DNA of 20,015 bases from a virus, in the IMG/VR virus record IMGVR_UViG_3300048011_000155, positions 1 through 20,015 of that record; one strand, given 5' to 3'. Made by a program: the position numbers and the translations under genes. Each line of letters opens with the position of its first letter. Positions within the stretch are counted from its first letter, which is position 1. Below the pieces are notes generated by a model. That model ran no database searches. It saw nothing but the letters and a program-made list of their open reading frames with translations, and was not told the DNA's origin. Positions 1,658 through 11,311 of this stretch are shown one piece after another.

Positions 1658-4183
1658 TTAAAACTGTACGGCATTCCTAGATGGCGGTAAGAAAAATTCA
1701 GAATTGTAGTCGCGTTCCATCCGCTGTTCTAATCGGCGCAAATATCCGGGACTCATCTGTTCAGAGATGTTGTGTAGTAACAAATAGTCGATAGCGAATT
1801 TAGCATAAAACAGGTTGATGCCCGGTATGTTTCTCGACATTACCCGCGTTAATGTATCGCCCGCACCTTCTGGATTGCCGTCAGCAAATTTGCCCCAAGC
1901 CCTTAAACCATCAGCAAGTGTGCCCGCAGTCGGCCCCATCAGCGTTTCTAGCGGCCCTTGTCCATAGCGGTTAAACTCACCAAAGATAAAGTCGCCGTAG
2001 ATACCGGCACCGCCGCCAGCTACAAAGGCTTCTGTAAAGCTTTTCCATCCTTGCTCGACACTGAACACTTCGCGTGGCTCACGGCCTTTCAAGATGTCTT
2101 TTGTTGCGTTAGAGATGTAACCCATGACTGTCGCGCCAGCTATCATCTGGGCAATGCCAACAGCCGCAGAGCGTTCCGCAGCCCTGTACCCTGCCGCTTG
2201 GCGGCGCAAGCCTTTAGTGATGAACGTAACTGGAAACGATTTAAACTGCATAATCATGCGGATTGCCTCGCCTTCGGGCGTTCCCCTAGCAAGCCCTCTG
2301 TTTAGGATTGCACGTTCTCTTGCGCCCGGCGTTGGCACGGCAGCATCTGCGCTGTCTGCATAGTAAGCCATAATCTTGGTACGCAGTTCATCGCGGTATG
2401 CTTGTCTTGCGCGGTCTGTAACCTCAGTAATCCCCATATTCGCGCTAACAACAGGGTCAAGCTGTTCATCTGTCAGGTCATCAACCATTCTGGCAAACAC
2501 ATAGTTCCTGCCGTCTTCTGCTTTCGTATCGACATGCCGGAACAAAGCTATCTCGTTCTGCTTGATGTTGTACATCTTCAGCGTGTTGACTAAGCCTACG
2601 TCCATTTCATCGAAAGACTTGCCGATATTATCCGCAAGAACAGCCGCCAATATTCTAGCCGTGCCGTCCTTTTGTGCTGAGTTCCAGAACTGCATACCGT
2701 TCATCTTAAAGTACAGTTGCTGCGCCTTAGTCATCCTGCCCGGCAGCTGGTCGTCAGCAGCAAAACGTGAGTGGACATTGCCCAACATGGCGTCTGTGCC
2801 AGTGCCGAGATAGTATGAAAATTGCTGTTTTTGTTTGTCAGTGAAGGCATTCATCACATCAAGAATAGACCTGTTGTATGCCTGAAACATGCTTAACCCG
2901 GCCTCACGCTGCAAAAGCATAGCCTTTGAGTTAATGTCCGAGAATGATGAAATTGTGGCAAACCCGAGCTTGGACATATTCTGTAAGGCTCTAAGACTCG
3001 CAGCCACTGCCGTCAAATCCGCGCCAAGGAATTTCTTTTGCGTACCAAATATGCCGCGCATACTGCCATCAAGTTCAGCAAAAGCGTTCTTAATACGTTT
3101 GGCGTCTGCGCTTCCGGGCGCAAAACCAAAGTCAGAGATGTACTTGTCCACCATAGCCGCTGGGTTTGTGCCAAGCACCTCCATTAAGGCGATAGATTCT
3201 GCATCGTTTGTAATGCCGTCCAGCACAGACGAAATCAACGTCTTGCCCGAATACTTATCAGCGTAAGCTTTTGATGACTTGCCATCCTTGAAGTGCAGAA
3301 CCCTTGAGCCGCTTAGCTTTTTAGCCAAGTTAGCCGGGCCTTTGAACGCTGTAACCGGGTCTATCTTTCCGTCTGCGCCCACAACAGATGATGACTTTTG
3401 GAAATTGCCGCTTTCTAAATGCTGGTAAGCTTCCTTCAGGAAAGCCCGCCGCGCACGTTCCGGCACCCCATCAAATGTTTTCTCAATATCTAGCAGTTGA
3501 ATAATGTCATCGTGCCATGCGTCAAACCCCGCATCACGCAATCTGTTCGGGTCGTGGCGCTGTCTAACAACATAGTTAATCAGTTCACCGATATTTGCCC
3601 CACTCCGGTTCTTCCGGTGCAGTAGGTTCTTCTGCACCTTCTCTACGGCCCTTGCTATTAGTTCTGCCTCTGCATCATTAGACTTGCCAAACCCATCGAA
3701 CAGTTCAATGTAGATTGCTTGGTCAAGGTCGCCGGACTGAAACATCTTAACCAAGTCATTGCGCTCTAGTTCAGCAAGCAACAGGCCCGCAGCATCATTG
3801 AGTATGCCTTGCCGCCGGGCATCAACACTTAATCTGCCGCCTTCGTAGTTTTTGAATGAGCCGACAAGAATATCCATAAACGCATCAGCTTCTGAGCCCT
3901 TGCCGCTTTCAACATATGATTTGATTTGGCGGTTCAAATCCATAACACGCCGCTTGTTTATCAGGTAGTTTCGCTTTTGAATGGCTGCGTTTATCTTAGC
4001 GTTCTTGTGAAGCGAGATTACTTTATCGCGCAGCTGGTCCTCTTGAGACTTCGAGTATATTTTGCCTATACGCTTCTCAAGTTGCTCTTGAAGCTGGGCA
4101 AGAATTTCCTCTGCCTCGTCATCATTGATTTCGTGGCCTAGTTCTTTGGCGGCTTCTTTTACACTAAGCTTACATGCTTCCAT
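1658..4183 (-). CDS. gp16-like internal virion protein, C-terminal ORF of a split gene
   Basis: An 841-residue ORF that looks like the C-terminal two-thirds of large gp16-type ejection proteins. The most telling parts are near the end: M-I-M-Q-F-K-S-F-P-V-T-F-I-T-K-G-L-R-R, a hydrophobic helix (V-G-I-A-Q-M-I-A-G-A-T-V-M-G-Y), then Y-G-D-F-I-F-G-E-F-N-R-Y-G and G-P-T-A-G-T-L-A-D-G, a set found in many podovirus internal core proteins. The first 120 residues are a charged helix. The only upstream Shine-Dalgarno candidates are weak (GCAGG about ten bases before the ATG), so translation probably depends on ribosomes finishing the ORF before it. Length and synteny (just before the fibre) match T7 gp16. 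No catalytic motif is seen. Confidence 0.85.
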   Translation of the reverse strand: MEACKLSVKEAAKELGHEINDDEAEEILAQLQEQLEKRIGKIYSKSQEDQLRDKVISLHKNAKINAAIQKRNYLINKRRVMDLNRQIKSYVESGKGSEADAFMDILVGSFKNYEGGRLSVDARRQGILNDAAGLLLAELERNDLVKMFQSGDLDQAIYIELFDGFGKSNDAEAELIARAVEKVQKNLLHRKNRSGANIGELINYVVRQRHDPNRLRDAGFDAWHDDIIQLLDIEKTFDGVPERARRAFLKEAYQHLESGNFQKSSSVVGADGKIDPVTAFKGPANLAKKLSGSRVLHFKDGKSSKAYADKYSGKTLISSVLDGITNDAESIALMEVLGTNPAAMVDKYISDFGFAPGSADAKRIKNAFAELDGSMRGIFGTQKKFLGADLTAVAASLRALQNMSKLGFATISSFSDINSKAMLLQREAGLSMFQAYNRSILDVMNAFTDKQKQQFSYYLGTGTDAMLGNVHSRFAADDQLPGRMTKAQQLYFKMNGMQFWNSAQKDGTARILAAVLADNIGKSFDEMDVGLVNTLKMYNIKQNEIALFRHVDTKAEDGRNYVFARMVDDLTDEQLDPVVSANMGITEVTDRARQAYRDELRTKIMAYYADSADAAVPTPGARERAILNRGLARGTPEGEAIRMIMQFKSFPVTFITKGLRRQAAGYRAAERSAAVGIAQMIAGATVMGYISNATKDILKGREPREVFSVEQGWKSFTEAFVAGGGAGIYGDFIFGEFNRYGQGPLETLMGPTAGTLADGLRAWGKFADGNPEGAGDTLTRVMSRNIPGINLFYAKFAIDYLLLHNISEQMSPGYLRRLEQRMERDYNSEFFLPPSRNAVQF

Positions 4184-4186
4184 AAC

Positions 4187-5896
4187 TTAACTGCCTGCCC
4201 CCTCTAAACACTCTTTGGCTCTAGTAACTATAGAGTCGTAATCTTCAGCTTTTGCCTGCAATCGTTGCAGTTCATTGAACTCATCAATAAAGTCCTGTGG
4301 GTCTGCGCCCTCTGCAATCATTGCGTCAATCTCGTCCTGTAGTTCGTCATTATACTTGTTAATCAAACCGAGTTGTTCTGAGTCAAACTCAGCGGCAACC
4401 GCATCAGCCTCTTCCATCCGAGCCCTGATTTGTGCGGATTCTTCAGCATCACCTACAGCCTCATATTGGCCTGTACGCATGTTGTGTATTTCTTGTTCTG
4501 TGAGTCCGTCATACTCACGCTTTAACTCAGCGTCCGGGCCAAAAGCTTCTCTGCGGTTTTCAAGAACAGCAAGAAAGTCTTCATCAGACATGCCCCTATA
4601 CTTAATGCCATACTTATCAGCCTCGTCCTTTAAAGCCAAAGCCTGCTCACGCGCTGCTAATTCATCAAAGTCAAACTCTCTGTATTTAAAATCGCCAGCG
4701 ATGTCATCTTGCAACGCTTCTAAAAACTCTGACGTTGTAGGCCTGTCTTCTCCACGGAAGTAACCCGCTTCCCATGCCGCCAGTGCCATGTCATCAACGC
4801 TCTTAGGTTCTGGCCCAACCATGCCCTTTCTGCGGCGAGGTTTTGACGCGATAAGCTGCATCTGTTTGGCTTTTTTAGTTTTACCAGCTGAATCACCAGC
4901 AGCCTGTGCCACATCACCTACAAGTGGGTCATCTGCTTTGATGCCGCCAGCATCTCGAACAAACTTTGATAGTGTCTTGAGTGGCTTAACTGAAGCTTTT
5001 GTAGGCTCAAGAATGCTTGGAAGCTTGTTGCCTCTTCTCTGTCTGTCAATTAGTGGCACAGCGCGTGAGTTTTCGGGAACAGTGTTTTCGCCGCGAATGT
5101 CAGGGTCATTGCGCATAACAGGGTCGGCTTTGATAGCGAGGTTTGTGTCTACCTGTTTGCCTTCAACAGTCTGAGCGATAGCCGTTCTTGCTAATGCCAT
5201 ACGTTGTTTATGCCCGGCCCGCTTCAAAGCATCGCCCACTTTAGCCGCGCCAAAATGCAACCCGCCACCTAACGTTGTGCCAAACACAACATTCATTAGC
5301 GAGTCTGTTACCGTGTAATCGTTGTTTTGCTCATACCGCGCAGTACCATATACAATAGGCTCTACAGCTACGGCACCTATCGCGCCCTCAGTAGCTCCTC
5401 TGCGGAATGTGCCAGTCTTGCCCAGCTTTGTAACCATTGTAGCTGTTTTGGCAAACCTAGCCGCTGCCATTGTTGGAATAAATGCTGAAGCAATGTTGAT
5501 GGGGTCTAAGGCAGATGCCACCAGCGCCGTGCCAAACTGCCCCGCTGCCAAACCAAAGCCACCTCTCGTTCTGCTCAGTGTTAGCTTACGCGCTTCACGG
5601 TCATCATAACGCTCCGCAAGCATAGAGGCTTTTGATTCGTATATTCCGTCTTGGGTTACTTCTATCCCCGGCCTAAAAAACTCACTTTTCTGGTATTCTT
5701 CTGATGTCAGCTTACGGCCTGAACTTCCTCGAAACGCCAATTCAGCAGAGCGTATGGCCGATGACATCGGGTTCTCGTACATAGCCTGCTGGAATGTTGC
5801 CCCAAGAATATCTAACGTGCCTACTTTGGAATAGTCAAAGTAGTCGCGGCGTAGGTTTTCATCGGTTGCTTGGGGTGGAATATATAGTTTAGTCAC
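4187..5896 (-). CDS. gp16-like internal virion protein, N-terminal ORF of a split gene
   Basis: A 569-residue ORF in the gp16 slot, starting at GTG inside the end of the previous gene. It contains a Gly/Ala/hydrophobic region (about residues 108-205: A-A-G-Q-F-G-T-A-L-V-A-S-A-L-D-P-I-N, later V-V-F-G-T-T-L-G-G-G-L-H-F) of the kind seen in large ejection proteins that insert in the inner membrane, then a Lys/Arg-rich disordered part, then an acidic helical C-terminus. No transglycosylase motif is visible at the N-terminus, unlike T7 gp16. It ends at TAA (4189-4187), and the next ORF starts two codons later in the same frame. Together they span 1,410 residues, close to T7 gp16 (1,318), so the two probably represent one ancestral protein, made as two chains or joined by rare readthrough. 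Confidence 0.8.
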   Translation of the reverse strand: MTKLYIPPQATDENLRRDYFDYSKVGTLDILGATFQQAMYENPMSSAIRSAELAFRGSSGRKLTSEEYQKSEFFRPGIEVTQDGIYESKASMLAERYDDREARKLTLSRTRGGFGLAAGQFGTALVASALDPINIASAFIPTMAAARFAKTATMVTKLGKTGTFRRGATEGAIGAVAVEPIVYGTARYEQNNDYTVTDSLMNVVFGTTLGGGLHFGAAKVGDALKRAGHKQRMALARTAIAQTVEGKQVDTNLAIKADPVMRNDPDIRGENTVPENSRAVPLIDRQRRGNKLPSILEPTKASVKPLKTLSKFVRDAGGIKADDPLVGDVAQAAGDSAGKTKKAKQMQLIASKPRRRKGMVGPEPKSVDDMALAAWEAGYFRGEDRPTTSEFLEALQDDIAGDFKYREFDFDELAAREQALALKDEADKYGIKYRGMSDEDFLAVLENRREAFGPDAELKREYDGLTEQEIHNMRTGQYEAVGDAEESAQIRARMEEADAVAAEFDSEQLGLINKYNDELQDEIDAMIAEGADPQDFIDEFNELQRLQAKAEDYDSIVTRAKECLEGAGS

Positions 5897-8246
5897 GGTT
5901 CATCTCGCGCAACATTGCATTTGCTTGGTCAGTCAGCTGTGCTTCTCTTTCAGCAAGCCGTTTATTTTCTTTAAGTTGTTCTTGGTAAGCGTCCTCGCCC
6001 TGTTCGCGTTTGATTGTATTCAAGCCCAAACCTGTAACGATTTGACCGCGCAATCTACGCGCTTCAGCAAGCATGTTTGTTGCAGTTTCTGCCGTAACTT
6101 TGTTTTGCTTTCTGATTGAAATGGACTCTTGCATAAGTTCATCAAAAGAAAACTCAGCCCTTGTTTCCACTGACTCGTCAAGTTTATTGACAGACAAATT
6201 AACTGGGTTCTCAAACTCATCGACAAGATACACACCGTCATCTGTGTCGTTAGTTACAAAACCGCCCTTGCCATTGCGCAAATCTTGAATAAACGCCTCA
6301 CGCTCTAAGTCAGAACCGGGGAATGCAATCAAAGCGGTAAATGCAGGGTCTCTTAACTTTGCGTCTAACTGGCGCAAGAAGCCATCTGCTGTAAGTTCAT
6401 CGTACTCCGCAGGCACTCGCATTGTGGCCGAGCCGGAACGTCTGAAATTGTACTGGCTTGTAATAACCTTGGCGGCACTATCTGCGGCCTCATCAATATC
6501 CATGCCACGCGAGGCTTTTGCCAGCGCAAGCTTTAGCACAGCCTGTTCAAATCCGTTTACAGACGCAATCCGTGCAGGGGTTGCGGTCAGCCCAATGCGC
6601 CCTTCATCTATGTCGCCAATAATACTGCGCTTAAACTCAGCTGTTCTTTCGTAAACTGCGCGGGCCACATCGCCTTTCTTGGCGTTAAACACATCCAGCC
6701 CAGCCGTAATCTCTTTCATGTCTTGCTTTTCAGCAGTCAAAAGTTCCATAGAGTCCGGGTCGCCGTTACGAGATAGGGCAATGTTCATAGCTGGTGTCAT
6801 GCCAAGGCGCATCGCTCTGCCTGTGGCGAAGTTTTCGGCTTGCCCTCTAAACCCTGCAAAGAAGCGAGAAAACTCCTTATATGTAGTCTGCGCATCTAAT
6901 TCAGCTGTGCCCTCAAGCAAAGATGCAAACGCCTCGTTTGTAAACGGTGCAACCTGTGTACCAGACAAGCCCATATCTATTTGTTTTTGAACGATTTCTG
7001 ATGCTGTCGGTGCGCGGCCATTGGCTCTTTGGAAGACATTTGCAACAAATTGCGCCGGGTCTTCAGCGATTAGTTTGTTTACAGTAGATTCAGTTTTGTT
7101 CAGCGCCTCTAGCGCGGCGGCTGTCTCTGCTGCATTTTCTGTATTTATATTAGCCAGCAGTTCTTCGCGCTTCTCTGTGACTAAATCTGCGCGAGCTTCA
7201 GCTGACGAGAATGCAACGCTTGGCGTATAAAGAAATTGCGCCGAATCCAAAGCATTTATTTTTGATAGCAACAGGTTGGCTTTAGCTGGCTGAGACAGTG
7301 ACCGCAGTGTTTCCACTTCAGCCATAGCAGCGCCTTTTGCTTCTGCGTAATCTTCGTCTGTCTGGGCCATACCCATAGAAGCCATAGCGTCATCTGAGCG
7401 TGCCATCGACTCATATGTCTCTTCTGTAGCCATCTTATTGGTACGGCTTTCCAGAATGCTAATTAGTTTATCGCGCTCTGAAGGAAGGTATGTTGAATAC
7501 TCATTTAAAGACAGAACCTCACGCCCTTCTTCATCTACTGTTGAAGAACCGCCAGTCTCAATTTCTGATATTTTTTGCTGTAAATCTTGATAGGTTGCAT
7601 TCGGGTCGTTAGCCATTGAAACAACAAGCTGCGTATCTAAAGCAAATGCAAATTCTTCTGTCGTAGGAAGCTTGCCATTGAAGCCACTGCGCGTTGCAAA
7701 ATCATAAGCTTCAGCATGTGCCAACAAAGCATCATTCCTAGAAACAAGGCCAGAAACATACTCTGAGGTGGTTTGGTCCAGCCCCTTTGCCGCTGTCACA
7801 GCTTTGTTTGTTTGCTCAATATCAAATGTGTCTTTAATGCCTTGAAGCTTATACAGCTGCCCGACACTATCTAGCTTGCGCATAGCGCTTTGCAAACGCG
7901 ATTTGCTTATTGCCGGAGTGTCTAAGTTATTTTTAAACTCTGTAACCGTATCTTCGTAGAGTGTGCTCCATTCTTCTACAGTCTGTGGGTTTGTCCGTTG
8001 CCTCAAAGTGGACAGGTTTTCCCGCAGTTCGTTTGTAGAGTTAGCTATAAAGTCTTCTTGCAATTCATTCTGGCGGCGCTTTTCAAACGCAGTGGCTATA
8101 TCAGCTACAGCCCCTAGCGCTTGCTGAGTTGTTCTAACGCCTGCCAACACGCCCTGCTCAAGCCCGGCACCAGACAGCCTCGGCCCAAGCCTGCCTGTAG
8201 CCAGCGCGGCCTGTTTTCCTTGGTCAAACATTGGAATCTTAGGCAT
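5889..8246 (-). CDS. Internal virion protein, T7 gp15-like
   Basis: A 785-residue, mostly helical, acidic protein between the gp14-like and gp16-like genes; T7 gp15 (internal protein C) is 747. In T7 it forms part of the internal core and then a periplasmic tube for DNA entry. The N-terminus P-x-I-P-M-F-D-Q-G-K-Q-A-A-L-A-T-G-R-L-G-P-R-L-S and the G-V-R-T-T-Q-Q-A-L-G-A-V stretch (about 37-48) are like other podovirus core proteins. The C-terminus is a charged helix (Q-L-K-E-N-K-R-L-A-E-R-E-A-Q-L-T-D-Q-A). I see no catalytic motif or membrane segment. The assignment rests on size, composition and synteny. It overlaps the next gene by eight bases (GTGACTAA). Confidence 0.82.
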   Translation of the reverse strand: MPKIPMFDQGKQAALATGRLGPRLSGAGLEQGVLAGVRTTQQALGAVADIATAFEKRRQNELQEDFIANSTNELRENLSTLRQRTNPQTVEEWSTLYEDTVTEFKNNLDTPAISKSRLQSAMRKLDSVGQLYKLQGIKDTFDIEQTNKAVTAAKGLDQTTSEYVSGLVSRNDALLAHAEAYDFATRSGFNGKLPTTEEFAFALDTQLVVSMANDPNATYQDLQQKISEIETGGSSTVDEEGREVLSLNEYSTYLPSERDKLISILESRTNKMATEETYESMARSDDAMASMGMAQTDEDYAEAKGAAMAEVETLRSLSQPAKANLLLSKINALDSAQFLYTPSVAFSSAEARADLVTEKREELLANINTENAAETAAALEALNKTESTVNKLIAEDPAQFVANVFQRANGRAPTASEIVQKQIDMGLSGTQVAPFTNEAFASLLEGTAELDAQTTYKEFSRFFAGFRGQAENFATGRAMRLGMTPAMNIALSRNGDPDSMELLTAEKQDMKEITAGLDVFNAKKGDVARAVYERTAEFKRSIIGDIDEGRIGLTATPARIASVNGFEQAVLKLALAKASRGMDIDEAADSAAKVITSQYNFRRSGSATMRVPAEYDELTADGFLRQLDAKLRDPAFTALIAFPGSDLEREAFIQDLRNGKGGFVTNDTDDGVYLVDEFENPVNLSVNKLDESVETRAEFSFDELMQESISIRKQNKVTAETATNMLAEARRLRGQIVTGLGLNTIKREQGEDAYQEQLKENKRLAEREAQLTDQANAMLREMNRD

Positions 8247-8707
8247 CAGTTCGCTTCCTCATATCCCGCATATGCTTCTGTTGTAGCGCCCAAAATGGAG
8301 CCTATAGCAGCTTGCTTATATCCCGCTGCACGGGCTTGCCCTGACAGAATTATAGACTCTACCTCTGCCTCTTTTGCCGCTTGTTCAATACTGCTTGCAT
8401 ACTGAATGCGTGCCGCTGCGTCTTCAACTCCAAAGTAAACTTCAGCCAGTGCATTCAAAGATGAGCCAGTAACCTGAACACCAGACTTGGCAATCGCAAC
8501 TTGCGCTGCCCCTTTTGTGTATTCGCCGCGGCGTCTAGCGCGAGATTCTTCATCTCGTTTAGCCCTTGCAAGAAGTAATGACTCATTCTCTGCAATTTGT
8601 GCGTCTCTTGCGGCGACCTGCTGCGCATATTTTGCAGCGCTTCTGTTGGCTTTATAACCAACAACGCCCTGTAGTACGGTTGCGCCCGCAGCTATTTCAC
8701 CAGCCAT
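8246..8707 (-). CDS. Internal virion protein, T7 gp14-like
   Basis: A 153-residue Ala-rich protein in the gp14 slot (T7 gp14, internal protein B, is 196). In T7, gp14 is ejected first and forms a pore in the outer membrane. Seen here: a glycine/alanine N-terminal helix (A-G-E-I-A-A-G-A-T-V-L-Q-G-V-V-G-Y, 2-18), a long charged helix with A-R-A-K-R-D-E-E-S-R-A-R-R-R-G-E, the S-G-V-Q-V-T-G-S-S-L-N-A-L motif (about 75-87), which is typical of this class, and another helix ending in a Gly/Ala segment (Q-A-A-I-G-S-I-L-G-A). It shares one base with both neighbours (TAATG before, TGATG after). Confidence 0.82.
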   Translation of the reverse strand: MAGEIAAGATVLQGVVGYKANRSAAKYAQQVAARDAQIAENESLLLARAKRDEESRARRRGEYTKGAAQVAIAKSGVQVTGSSLNALAEVYFGVEDAAARIQYASSIEQAAKEAEVESIILSGQARAAGYKQAAIGSILGATTEAYAGYEEAN

Positions 8708-9129
8708 TAAATTACCCTCGCCATTCTGTAGTAATCCTTGCCATCAGGACCATACTTTTTCATCAAGCCTTCGTTCTCAAAGCCTAGCCAGCGTGCAAAA
8801 CGTATAGCTTGGGCATCCTCCGAATGCACACTTGCTTGCACTCGCTGTAGATTTGCTTCATCCATAATAACATCAAAGAACTCATCAGCATATCTAGCAA
8901 CCGTGACAGGCATCTTATGGGCATTCTTAGATACCATAATCCAGCCCTCACCTACGCCCTGCCACAAAACATGCACCCCACCCATAACAACTATGTCTTT
9001 ATCTTTGCGAGCGGTGAGTCCCACTACATTGTTGTGGCTTTTAAATGAGTCCTTTTCTGTAGAAGAAAAACCGTATCCCAAGTCAATCTCGTCTACATCT
9101 TTTCTGTTGAATACTTCTACGTTAAGCAT
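8707..9129 (-). CDS. gp13-like virion protein with GNAT acetyltransferase fold
   Basis: A 140-residue protein in the position of T7 gp13 (internal protein A). Its second half has the shape of a GNAT N-acetyltransferase: a strand with G-W-I-M-V (62-66), a long helix, Q-R-V-Q-A-S-V-H (95-102), then E-D-A-Q-A-I-R-F-A-R-W-L-G-F (104-117), which matches the GNAT motif where the final helix ends in L-G-F, and Y-G-P-D-G-K-D-Y-Y. In T7-like phages this fold is common at this locus; whether it acetylates anything is unclear, and the acetyl-CoA loop is not obvious here. I chose the ATG at 9129 over an upstream TTG at 9159: it gives the 8-base overlap ATGCTTAA, with GGAGG 13 bases upstream. Confidence 0.8.
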   Translation of the reverse strand: MLNVEVFNRKDVDEIDLGYGFSSTEKDSFKSHNNVVGLTARKDKDIVVMGGVHVLWQGVGEGWIMVSKNAHKMPVTVARYADEFFDVIMDEANLQRVQASVHSEDAQAIRFARWLGFENEGLMKKYGPDGKDYYRMARVI

Positions 9130-11311
9130 CGAATGTGTTGGACCTCCGCATAATCGCAAGGATTGTCATCGGCAGCGGCTGTGTCTGCCGCACTAATACC
9201 CTTGCATCATTGTCATACCCCGATGGGAAAAAGATTTCTTTGTCACCGTCAAACATGGGCACGGCTTCATCCATCGCCATGCTACTGTCGCGGAAAGGTA
9301 TTCTATCCAGATTGTTTGCATCTGGGCCAACCTCTGCGCCTACGCTATCAAGGAAACGCACGGTCACGCCATGGATACGCTTAATTTTGCCCTGTGATAC
9401 ACCGTCATCAGCACCAGCTTCCATACGCAAGGTTTCAACCACCGAATTGTATGAGTAGCCCACATGAACCTTTGTCGAACTCCTGTCCAATGTAATGCTG
9501 CCGCTACTAACGGTCTTGTCTGCATGTGCTGCACCGTCTGCCAATATCTGTACAGTCTCGCCCTCAAGGTGGTCCAGGCCGCTGATAGTGGTTGTAGCTG
9601 AACCGCTGTATGTCAGCCCACTATCTACATAGAACGCATCAGTCACATCGGCGCCAAAGTATATTGGCTTCATGTACACAATATGCCGTGTCTCAACGCT
9701 ATTAATAGTGCGTTTGACTGACAGATACACTTGGTCTTCGGAGCCTGACGGTATTGACGCAATACTTTCAACAACACCTGTGCCGCCCAGCGTATGCTCA
9801 TGCCACGCGATTGTGTTGTTCTGTGGGTCGTAGCTGAGTCCAAGCAATTCGCCATCTGAACGCACAAACCAAAGCACAAGTTCCGGCTCTTGCTGCCATG
9901 TCATATCATCCAAGCCCACGCGGGCTAGGTGTTCGGCCAACACAGTTAAGTCACGCCCGGTCAGGCCATCAACATCCAAGTTAAATGTAATTTCTTTAAC
10001 CTTTGTCTGGCCCTTCTGCACCATGATTGTGCTAGAACCAGCACGCACAGGACGTACATTAGACGCGCCAAACGTAGTTTCGCGCAGTACGTTCACATTC
10101 GTAGGTGTAACAGGCTGTGTGCCAGTGCCGCCTGACAACGTAAACTCTGCGCTGCTTGTCAGGATTTGCAGGAAACGGCCCTGAATCATGTGCTTAATGA
10201 CGTTTACTTGGTCGGACGCAATCGTCACGTTAATTGCTTTGTCATCCTCTGTGCCGGGAGTGTGGTTCTCAAAGTCTGCCGTCACGGACCCAAAGATGGT
10301 CTGTGGCTGGCCTGTGGTGCCTGCGTAGTACAAACGCTCCTCGTAGAACGCAACGGCCCTTGGAAAGCCTTGGTCGCCCCCAAACGCCCCTAACGACCAT
10401 TTCTTTGTGGCATTTGAAGGCCCAATCACATTGTGCGGCAACACGGATATACCGCCGTCATCCTCTTGGACTACAGCAGTAACTACCGTTGCGCTCGTGA
10501 ACACAGTGATTTTGGCATACCCAGTGTCATCGTGGCGGTATTCCCAGTCGATTGCACCGTAGGTCTCTGTGCCGCTAGTGTGAACAGGCGGGGTGTTGCC
10601 AGATGTTTGAGTAGAACCTGTCACCTGCTTATACACATGCCCATTGTATCGCACAAATTCGTTGTTAGAGTAGCTTGTACCAGCAGCCCACTCATCGTAA
10701 GTAACCTCCAGCACTTCGCGGAATCTAATAAGACGCCCAACATCTGCGCTGGTAAACAAATCAGCAGACGCCGTAATCGTCACAGTGCCTGTGTCAGCAG
10801 AGGCGTACAACGTAGTGTCTGTTATGTTCTCATCGAGATATGGCCCATCAGTGAATGTGATGTCGCTAAATGTAAAGCTGGTTGCAGTTGTGCGTGTTAG
10901 CTTTGCTGGCTCATGGTTCTTGTGAGCAAAGAAAATAACATCAGCAGACTGCGTGTAGTTTAATTCAAATATCTCTGTGACTGAATAAGGTGTAGCCACC
11001 TCGACAGCGGAACCGCCAGAAACAAGTAACCCGCCATCTGTGTAAAAACGCATGTAGTTTGCGCCTAGTTCAATGACGTATGCTTGTTCATCGCTGAACT
11101 CAAATGGTATCAATCGCACCTTGCCGTTACTCTTTGACGAGCCAGCATAGTATGTGCCGGGTCTGCGTGTTGCCCCGCCCTGCGGGAACACCAGCATATT
11201 TGTCAGCTGCTGTACGCCATTGGCGTACTTCTGCAAATCAATCCTGCCCTCAAGTCGTGGTGATAACTCGCCAGACTGAAAGTTGGTGACAATAGTGGAT
11301 ACCCGCGCCAT
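9122..11311 (-). CDS. Tail tubular protein B / nozzle (T7 gp12-like)
   Basis: Forms the nozzle of the short tail, through which DNA leaves. At 729 residues it is close to T7 gp12 (794). The family's opening is clear: N-F-Q-S-G-E-L-S-P-R-L-E-G-R-I-D-L, followed by Y-A-N-G-V-Q-Q-L-T-N-M-L-V-F-P-Q-G-G-A, then R-R-P-G-T-Y-Y and L-I-P-F-E-F (about 67-72). The body is beta-rich with many Thr/Ser/Gly residues, including E-E-R-L-Y-Y-A-G-T, W-Q-Q-E-P-E-L-V-L-W-F-V-R-S-D-G-E-L-L-G, and F-P-S-G-Y-D-N-D-A-R near the end, all usual for nozzle proteins. It overlaps the following gene by eight bases. Confidence 0.93.
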   Translation of the reverse strand: MARVSTIVTNFQSGELSPRLEGRIDLQKYANGVQQLTNMLVFPQGGATRRPGTYYAGSSKSNGKVRLIPFEFSDEQAYVIELGANYMRFYTDGGLLVSGGSAVEVATPYSVTEIFELNYTQSADVIFFAHKNHEPAKLTRTTATSFTFSDITFTDGPYLDENITDTTLYASADTGTVTITASADLFTSADVGRLIRFREVLEVTYDEWAAGTSYSNNEFVRYNGHVYKQVTGSTQTSGNTPPVHTSGTETYGAIDWEYRHDDTGYAKITVFTSATVVTAVVQEDDGGISVLPHNVIGPSNATKKWSLGAFGGDQGFPRAVAFYEERLYYAGTTGQPQTIFGSVTADFENHTPGTEDDKAINVTIASDQVNVIKHMIQGRFLQILTSSAEFTLSGGTGTQPVTPTNVNVLRETTFGASNVRPVRAGSSTIMVQKGQTKVKEITFNLDVDGLTGRDLTVLAEHLARVGLDDMTWQQEPELVLWFVRSDGELLGLSYDPQNNTIAWHEHTLGGTGVVESIASIPSGSEDQVYLSVKRTINSVETRHIVYMKPIYFGADVTDAFYVDSGLTYSGSATTTISGLDHLEGETVQILADGAAHADKTVSSGSITLDRSSTKVHVGYSYNSVVETLRMEAGADDGVSQGKIKRIHGVTVRFLDSVGAEVGPDANNLDRIPFRDSSMAMDEAVPMFDGDKEIFFPSGYDNDARVLVRQTQPLPMTILAIMRRSNTFDA

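Follow-up and report, generated by a model that had tools for sequence, protein, structure and literature searches.

Phage T7 internal virion protein D (gp16; phrog_342) is a single chain of 1318 aa that has no cysteine, carries an SLT lysozyme domain at its N-terminus (residues 15-127) and is encoded in the 13-14-15-16-17 cassette. In phages epsilon15 (gp16/gp17) and phiV10 (p19/p20) two chains are encoded instead, the second of which belongs to phrog_684, and in epsilon15 the SLT domain is annotated on gp15. Two internal virion proteins were also found in marine phages, HTVC035P (gp48/gp47) and Skadi-4. One review counts the ejection proteins of Epsilon15 as divergent homologues of gp14/gp15/gp16, and cysteines are not mentioned in it (PMC8954989).

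We analyzed a 20,015-nt stretch of the IMG/VR virus record IMGVR_UViG_3300048011_000155 (positions 1 to 20,015; hereafter, the window), whose minus strand carries a podophage structural module comprising a portal (Head-tail_con), a major head protein and tail proteins, followed by ejection genes. The features relevant here are as follows:

8707..9159, minus strand: acyltransferase-like internal virion protein at the gp13 position (phrog_308, 1.4e-12)
8246..8707, minus strand: gp14-like internal virion protein (phrog_418, 8.4e-6; PF24072 T7_gp14, 4.2e-4, below the cut-off)
5889..8246, minus strand: gene at the gp15 position, 785 aa, no cysteine, placed by gene order against T7 13-14-15-16-17 and HTVC035P gp51-gp47
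4187..5896, minus strand: ORF1, 569 aa, GTG start at 5896, predicted to form the N-terminal half of a gp16-type ejection protein encoded in two parts, in the cassette position of the epsilon15 gp16-like gene
4208..4210, minus strand: sole cysteine codon of ORF1 (TGT), residue 563, seventh from the end, in an AxxC motif
4187..4189, minus strand: TAA stop codon of ORF1, in frame with ORF2, a native gene end according to the family comparison
1658..4183, minus strand: ORF2, 841 aa, ATG at 4183, predicted to form the C-terminal half of that two-part ejection protein, of the epsilon15 gp17 / phrog_684 type
4172..4174, minus strand: sole cysteine codon of ORF2 (TGT), residue 4

The succession of the gp13-position, gp14-like and gp15-position genes, ORF1 and ORF2 follows the T7 order 13-14-15-16-17, and the ORF1-ORF2 pair takes the place of T7 gp16. 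ORF1 matched the profiles phrog_3003 (8.8e-31) and phrog_342 (2.3e-11), its residues 32-390 aligning to positions 226-429 of the latter, and hhalign paired it with T7 gp16 221-418 (E=2e-4, probability 47%). ORF2 is a full-length match to phrog_684, a virion structural protein family (residues 3-837 of 841, E=4.3e-150), and its residues 637-689 paired with T7 gp16 1098-1146 (hhalign E 0.0096, probability 4%), with the MQFKSF motif in common. T7 gp16 is thus matched in order, its N-terminal part by ORF1 and its C-terminal part by ORF2, although this sequence link is remote and the order was recovered by hhalign only weakly. Among the relatives, phrog_342 was matched at 288-454 by ORF1 of phage VP2 and at 750-1000 by residues 310-559 of Acinetobacter 4316 ORF2 (2e-14), while ORF1 of BcepC6B and of TPWB-05 bears an SLT domain like the N-terminus of T7 gp16. 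In the window proteins, no Pfam domain reached the curated cut-off and no SLT domain was found in ORF1; searches of solved structures with the ORF1 and ORF2 sequences returned none that was relevant, and Foldseek gave no significant structural match for either single-chain model. Because of the in-order match to T7 gp16 and the SLT domain on ORF1 of BcepC6B and TPWB-05, we consider ORF1 and ORF2 to be the predicted counterparts of gp16 in split form, in a putative podophage with an epsilon15-like cassette. The initial annotation had noted that their summed length is near that of T7 gp16, which holds for the numbers (1410 aa vs 1318 aa); the likeness is partly coincidental, since T7 gp16 includes the SLT domain that ORF1 lacks.

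The described two-chain systems are distant from the window in sequence. Epsilon15 and phiV10 share with it the gene order, the two-chain split and the terminal cysteines, but only about 28% identity over the alignable parts, and the stop/start overlap of epsilon15 is out of frame. Likewise, HTVC035P and Skadi-4 have the cassette and the cysteines of the window, with about 28% identity and out-of-frame junctions.

Two ORFs were present at all 42 IMG/VR loci containing the junction. Among the cultured two-gene phages compared, including Pelagibacter HTVC035P and Skadi-4, Pseudomonas Flu_PA14_4 and MPK9, Vibrio 1.182.O, VP2 and K225, Stenotrophomonas BUCT708, Escherichia phiV10, epsilon15 and BcepC6B, the ejection cassette has the ORF1-type gene immediately followed by the ORF2-type gene, and both genes are present in every two-gene relative. 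The alignment of ORF1 reaches within about six residues of the ends of its homologues, and that of ORF2 starts from the first residues. We conclude that the protein is almost certainly made as two chains, with the TAA doing no more than ending ORF1, and that ORF1 and ORF2 are an ordinary pair of adjoining phage genes. Together with the in-order alignment to T7 gp16, the constant presence of both genes supports the earlier proposal that the gene is truly split and that its two chains assemble with each other. The coordinates confirmed that the two ORFs share one frame with TAA-GTT-ATG between them, i.e., one stop and a single GTT codon (4186-4184). The ribosome binding site of ORF2 had been called weak, fairly so because the upstream context, GAGGGGGCAGGCAGTTAAGTTATG, is G-rich yet poorly spaced for a Shine-Dalgarno site; the two genes are probably translationally coupled.

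What tells most about the junction is a feature that the initial annotation had not noticed, a pair of cysteines at the chain ends. In the alignments, the single conserved cysteine column of ORF1 is residue 563 (42/42 homologues), and that of ORF2 is residue 4 (41/41 aligned homologues covering it). Both terminal cysteines were found in 162 of 162 distinct junctions parsed automatically, which form 62 clusters at 70% identity and 35 at 50%. Six further junctions, misparsed by the script because of start codon or parsing problems, had both cysteines on a hand check, giving a total of 168 distinct junctions. The cysteine is the only one of its chain in 134 of the 162 ORF1 proteins and in 156 of the 162 ORF2 proteins; the last cysteine of ORF1 lies 2-10 residues from the end throughout, and the single one of ORF2 is mostly found at residues 3-12. 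These positions are encoded by TGT as well as by TGC, and therefore selection acts on the protein. The only true exception is a Rickettsia endosymbiont MAG (L165), which encodes two chains with neither cysteine and whose ORF2 also lacks about 50 N-terminal residues; this locus looks degenerate and may belong to a decaying prophage. Two loci were not assessable, L207 with a broken ORF2 start and L172 with no identifiable ORF1, the latter having the ORF2 cysteine. A provisional literature search on cysteines or disulphides in ejection proteins, with most subscription papers outside its reach, returned nothing relevant.

Single-chain versions provide a natural control for this pattern. We identified seven natural fusions (L137, L139, L142, L145, L146, L163 and L171), originating from Oscillospiraceae, Neisseriales, Verrucomicrobia and Hydrogenedentota MAGs. 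All seven contain an ORF2-like C-terminal part as in the window (1e-130 to 1e-216) and five of them a detectable ORF1-like N-terminal part, but they are single polypeptides, none of which has a cysteine closer than about 100 aa to the joint (162 two-chain junctions vs 7 fusions, Fisher p=1.5e-12, uncorrected for ancestry). MAG and contig sequences may hold errors, but the fusions were recovered from several different assemblies. In a midpoint-rooted tree the fusions sit among the two-chain proteins and the best free tree requires three changes, whereas a single fused clade was not rejected (AU test p=0.61), so that the within-family control may amount to one to three events. The T7-type gp16 proteins form a single-chain lineage of their own, and among 82 distinct sequences of it 75 have no cysteine and seven have one at scattered positions.

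Since each broken end has an invariant cysteine that is missing in the natural single-chain versions, a disulphide is the most likely role for the pair. Taken as a whole, an explanation by a gp16-type split pair, two chains with their ends joined by a disulphide, appears probable. For the bond itself, suggested by correlation, we lean modestly towards a link between the C-terminal tail of ORF1 and the N-terminus of ORF2; the meeting of the two chains at their cysteine ends, the disulphide nature of the link and its timing are what we infer from this pattern. Through such a link the two chains would regain the continuity that the backbone provides in T7 gp16. Virion assembly takes place in the reducing cytoplasm, so the bond would be expected to form beyond it, either once the virion has been released or, on ejection, in the periplasm of the host, where the ejected proteins would build a trans-envelope channel. 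In AlphaFold single-chain models both cysteines are placed in terminal helices (ORF1 534-568 and ORF2 2-14); these models are weak (ORF1 pTM 0.40), with low to moderate confidence in the terminal regions.

A further step, which we regard as rather unlikely, is that the oxidizing conditions of the periplasm switch on assembly of the DNA channel, with the split gp16 halves being linked end to end only there. It is part of the same doubtful proposal that lineages with fused genes can do without the cysteines. The cysteine pair tracks the chain break over 62 or more lineages and is thereby a simple and testable clue to two chains doing the work of one, which could connect ejectosome assembly with periplasmic redox conditions. 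It also offers a hypothesis on the function of epsilon15 gp16/gp17 and of many homologues annotated merely as hypothetical or virion structural proteins. If the disulphide is real, split gp16 with disulphide-joined halves would be a widespread class of podophage ejection protein.

The main rival to the disulphide takes ORF1 and ORF2 as separate ejection proteins, each with a terminal cysteine that has a role of its own, such as in homotypic disulphides within each ring, in a metal or cofactor site, in lipidation or as a packaging tag; this is a substantial possibility although not the one we favor. Both cysteines are kept in eight junctions with genes lying 63-524 nt apart, and therefore each is selected as a chain end, which fits independent roles, as does the fact that the cysteines have not been seen meeting in any structure. 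However, the two cysteines always occur as a pair and are lost together at the fusion joints and in the degenerate Rickettsia endosymbiont locus. Independent roles would not predict such an absence on fusion, and neither protein has another conserved cysteine column.

Two other readings of the junction in the initial annotation, regulated readthrough and a mutation or base-calling error, fail by the refuting condition named there, since the relatives encode two proteins with differing junctions. The frame of ORF1 relative to ORF2 was 1 in 63, 2 in 10 and 0 in six of 79 distinct junctions, and a larger automatic parse of 171 distinct junctions gave 136, 19 and 16, respectively; junctions of the in-frame type thus account for about 8-9% (6/79 or 16/171). 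With random frames, about a third of abutting gene pairs would be in the same frame, and the in-frame layout of the window junction is, judging from these counts, no more than chance. The commonest junction forms of the family are the TAATG and ATGA overlaps, both out of frame. The TAAGTTATG of the window is therefore one among several spacings that are multiples of three by chance, and Klebsiella phage BUCT711 (L113) has an in-frame junction with spacing identical to that of the window.

Regulated stop-codon readthrough, yielding a little full-length ORF1-ORF2 protein, has in its favor that the reading frame stays open across the TAA. It is nevertheless extremely improbable, because only about 8% of junctions have the stop in frame, so that the conserved in-frame stop expected of readthrough was not found, and because the genes can lie hundreds of bases apart (63-524 nt); the nearest relatives, L056 and L002, have out-of-frame TAATG-type overlaps, and the junction has no readthrough signal and no special RNA structure (z +1.0). 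Equally negligible is a single gene broken in this genome by a point mutation or base-calling error, since the end of ORF1 and the start of ORF2 lie where they typically do in the family and both have the conserved cysteine, the two-gene relatives all have a stop at the same place, and real fusions exist whose joint looks different; in its favor, the window is one contig and no close relative checks the TAA base, given that the 95% identical L047 ends short of the junction, the phage collection contains no relative at the DNA level and a DNA pattern scan with the junction found no close one. It should be noted that window positions 4192-4181 (minus strand) read AGTTAAGTTATG, with a tandem AGTTA at the ORF1/ORF2 junction, and that the in-frame spacing is obtainable from an L002-like TAATG overlap by a 4-base insertion.

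Several homologous loci differ in the surroundings or the domain content of the pair. In TPWB-05, an extra 117-aa gene (L112:3594-3947) lies between ORF1 and ORF2, with both terminal cysteines kept, and the Pseudomonas prophages L153, L156 and L159 have ORF1-ORF2 gaps of about 450-475 nt. The record of Dunaliella viridis virus SI2 (L114, HQ332136.1) carries a phage ejection module with both cysteines, and for this reason it looks like a bacteriophage rather than an algal virus. A long ORF1 homologue (L039:2507-5980) bears an ADP-ribosyltransferase exoenzyme domain at residues 847-1021 (PF03496, 7e-27), suggesting that the C-terminal region of ORF1 may serve as a site that accommodates cargo domains for delivery to the host bacterium. 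Finally, the ddrB-like ParB domain (PF18763), known from polyvalent injected proteins (PMC5512222), was identified on ORF1 of Acinetobacter TPWB-05 (L112:650-3496) and Escherichia vB_EcoM_APEC (L116:1409-4018).
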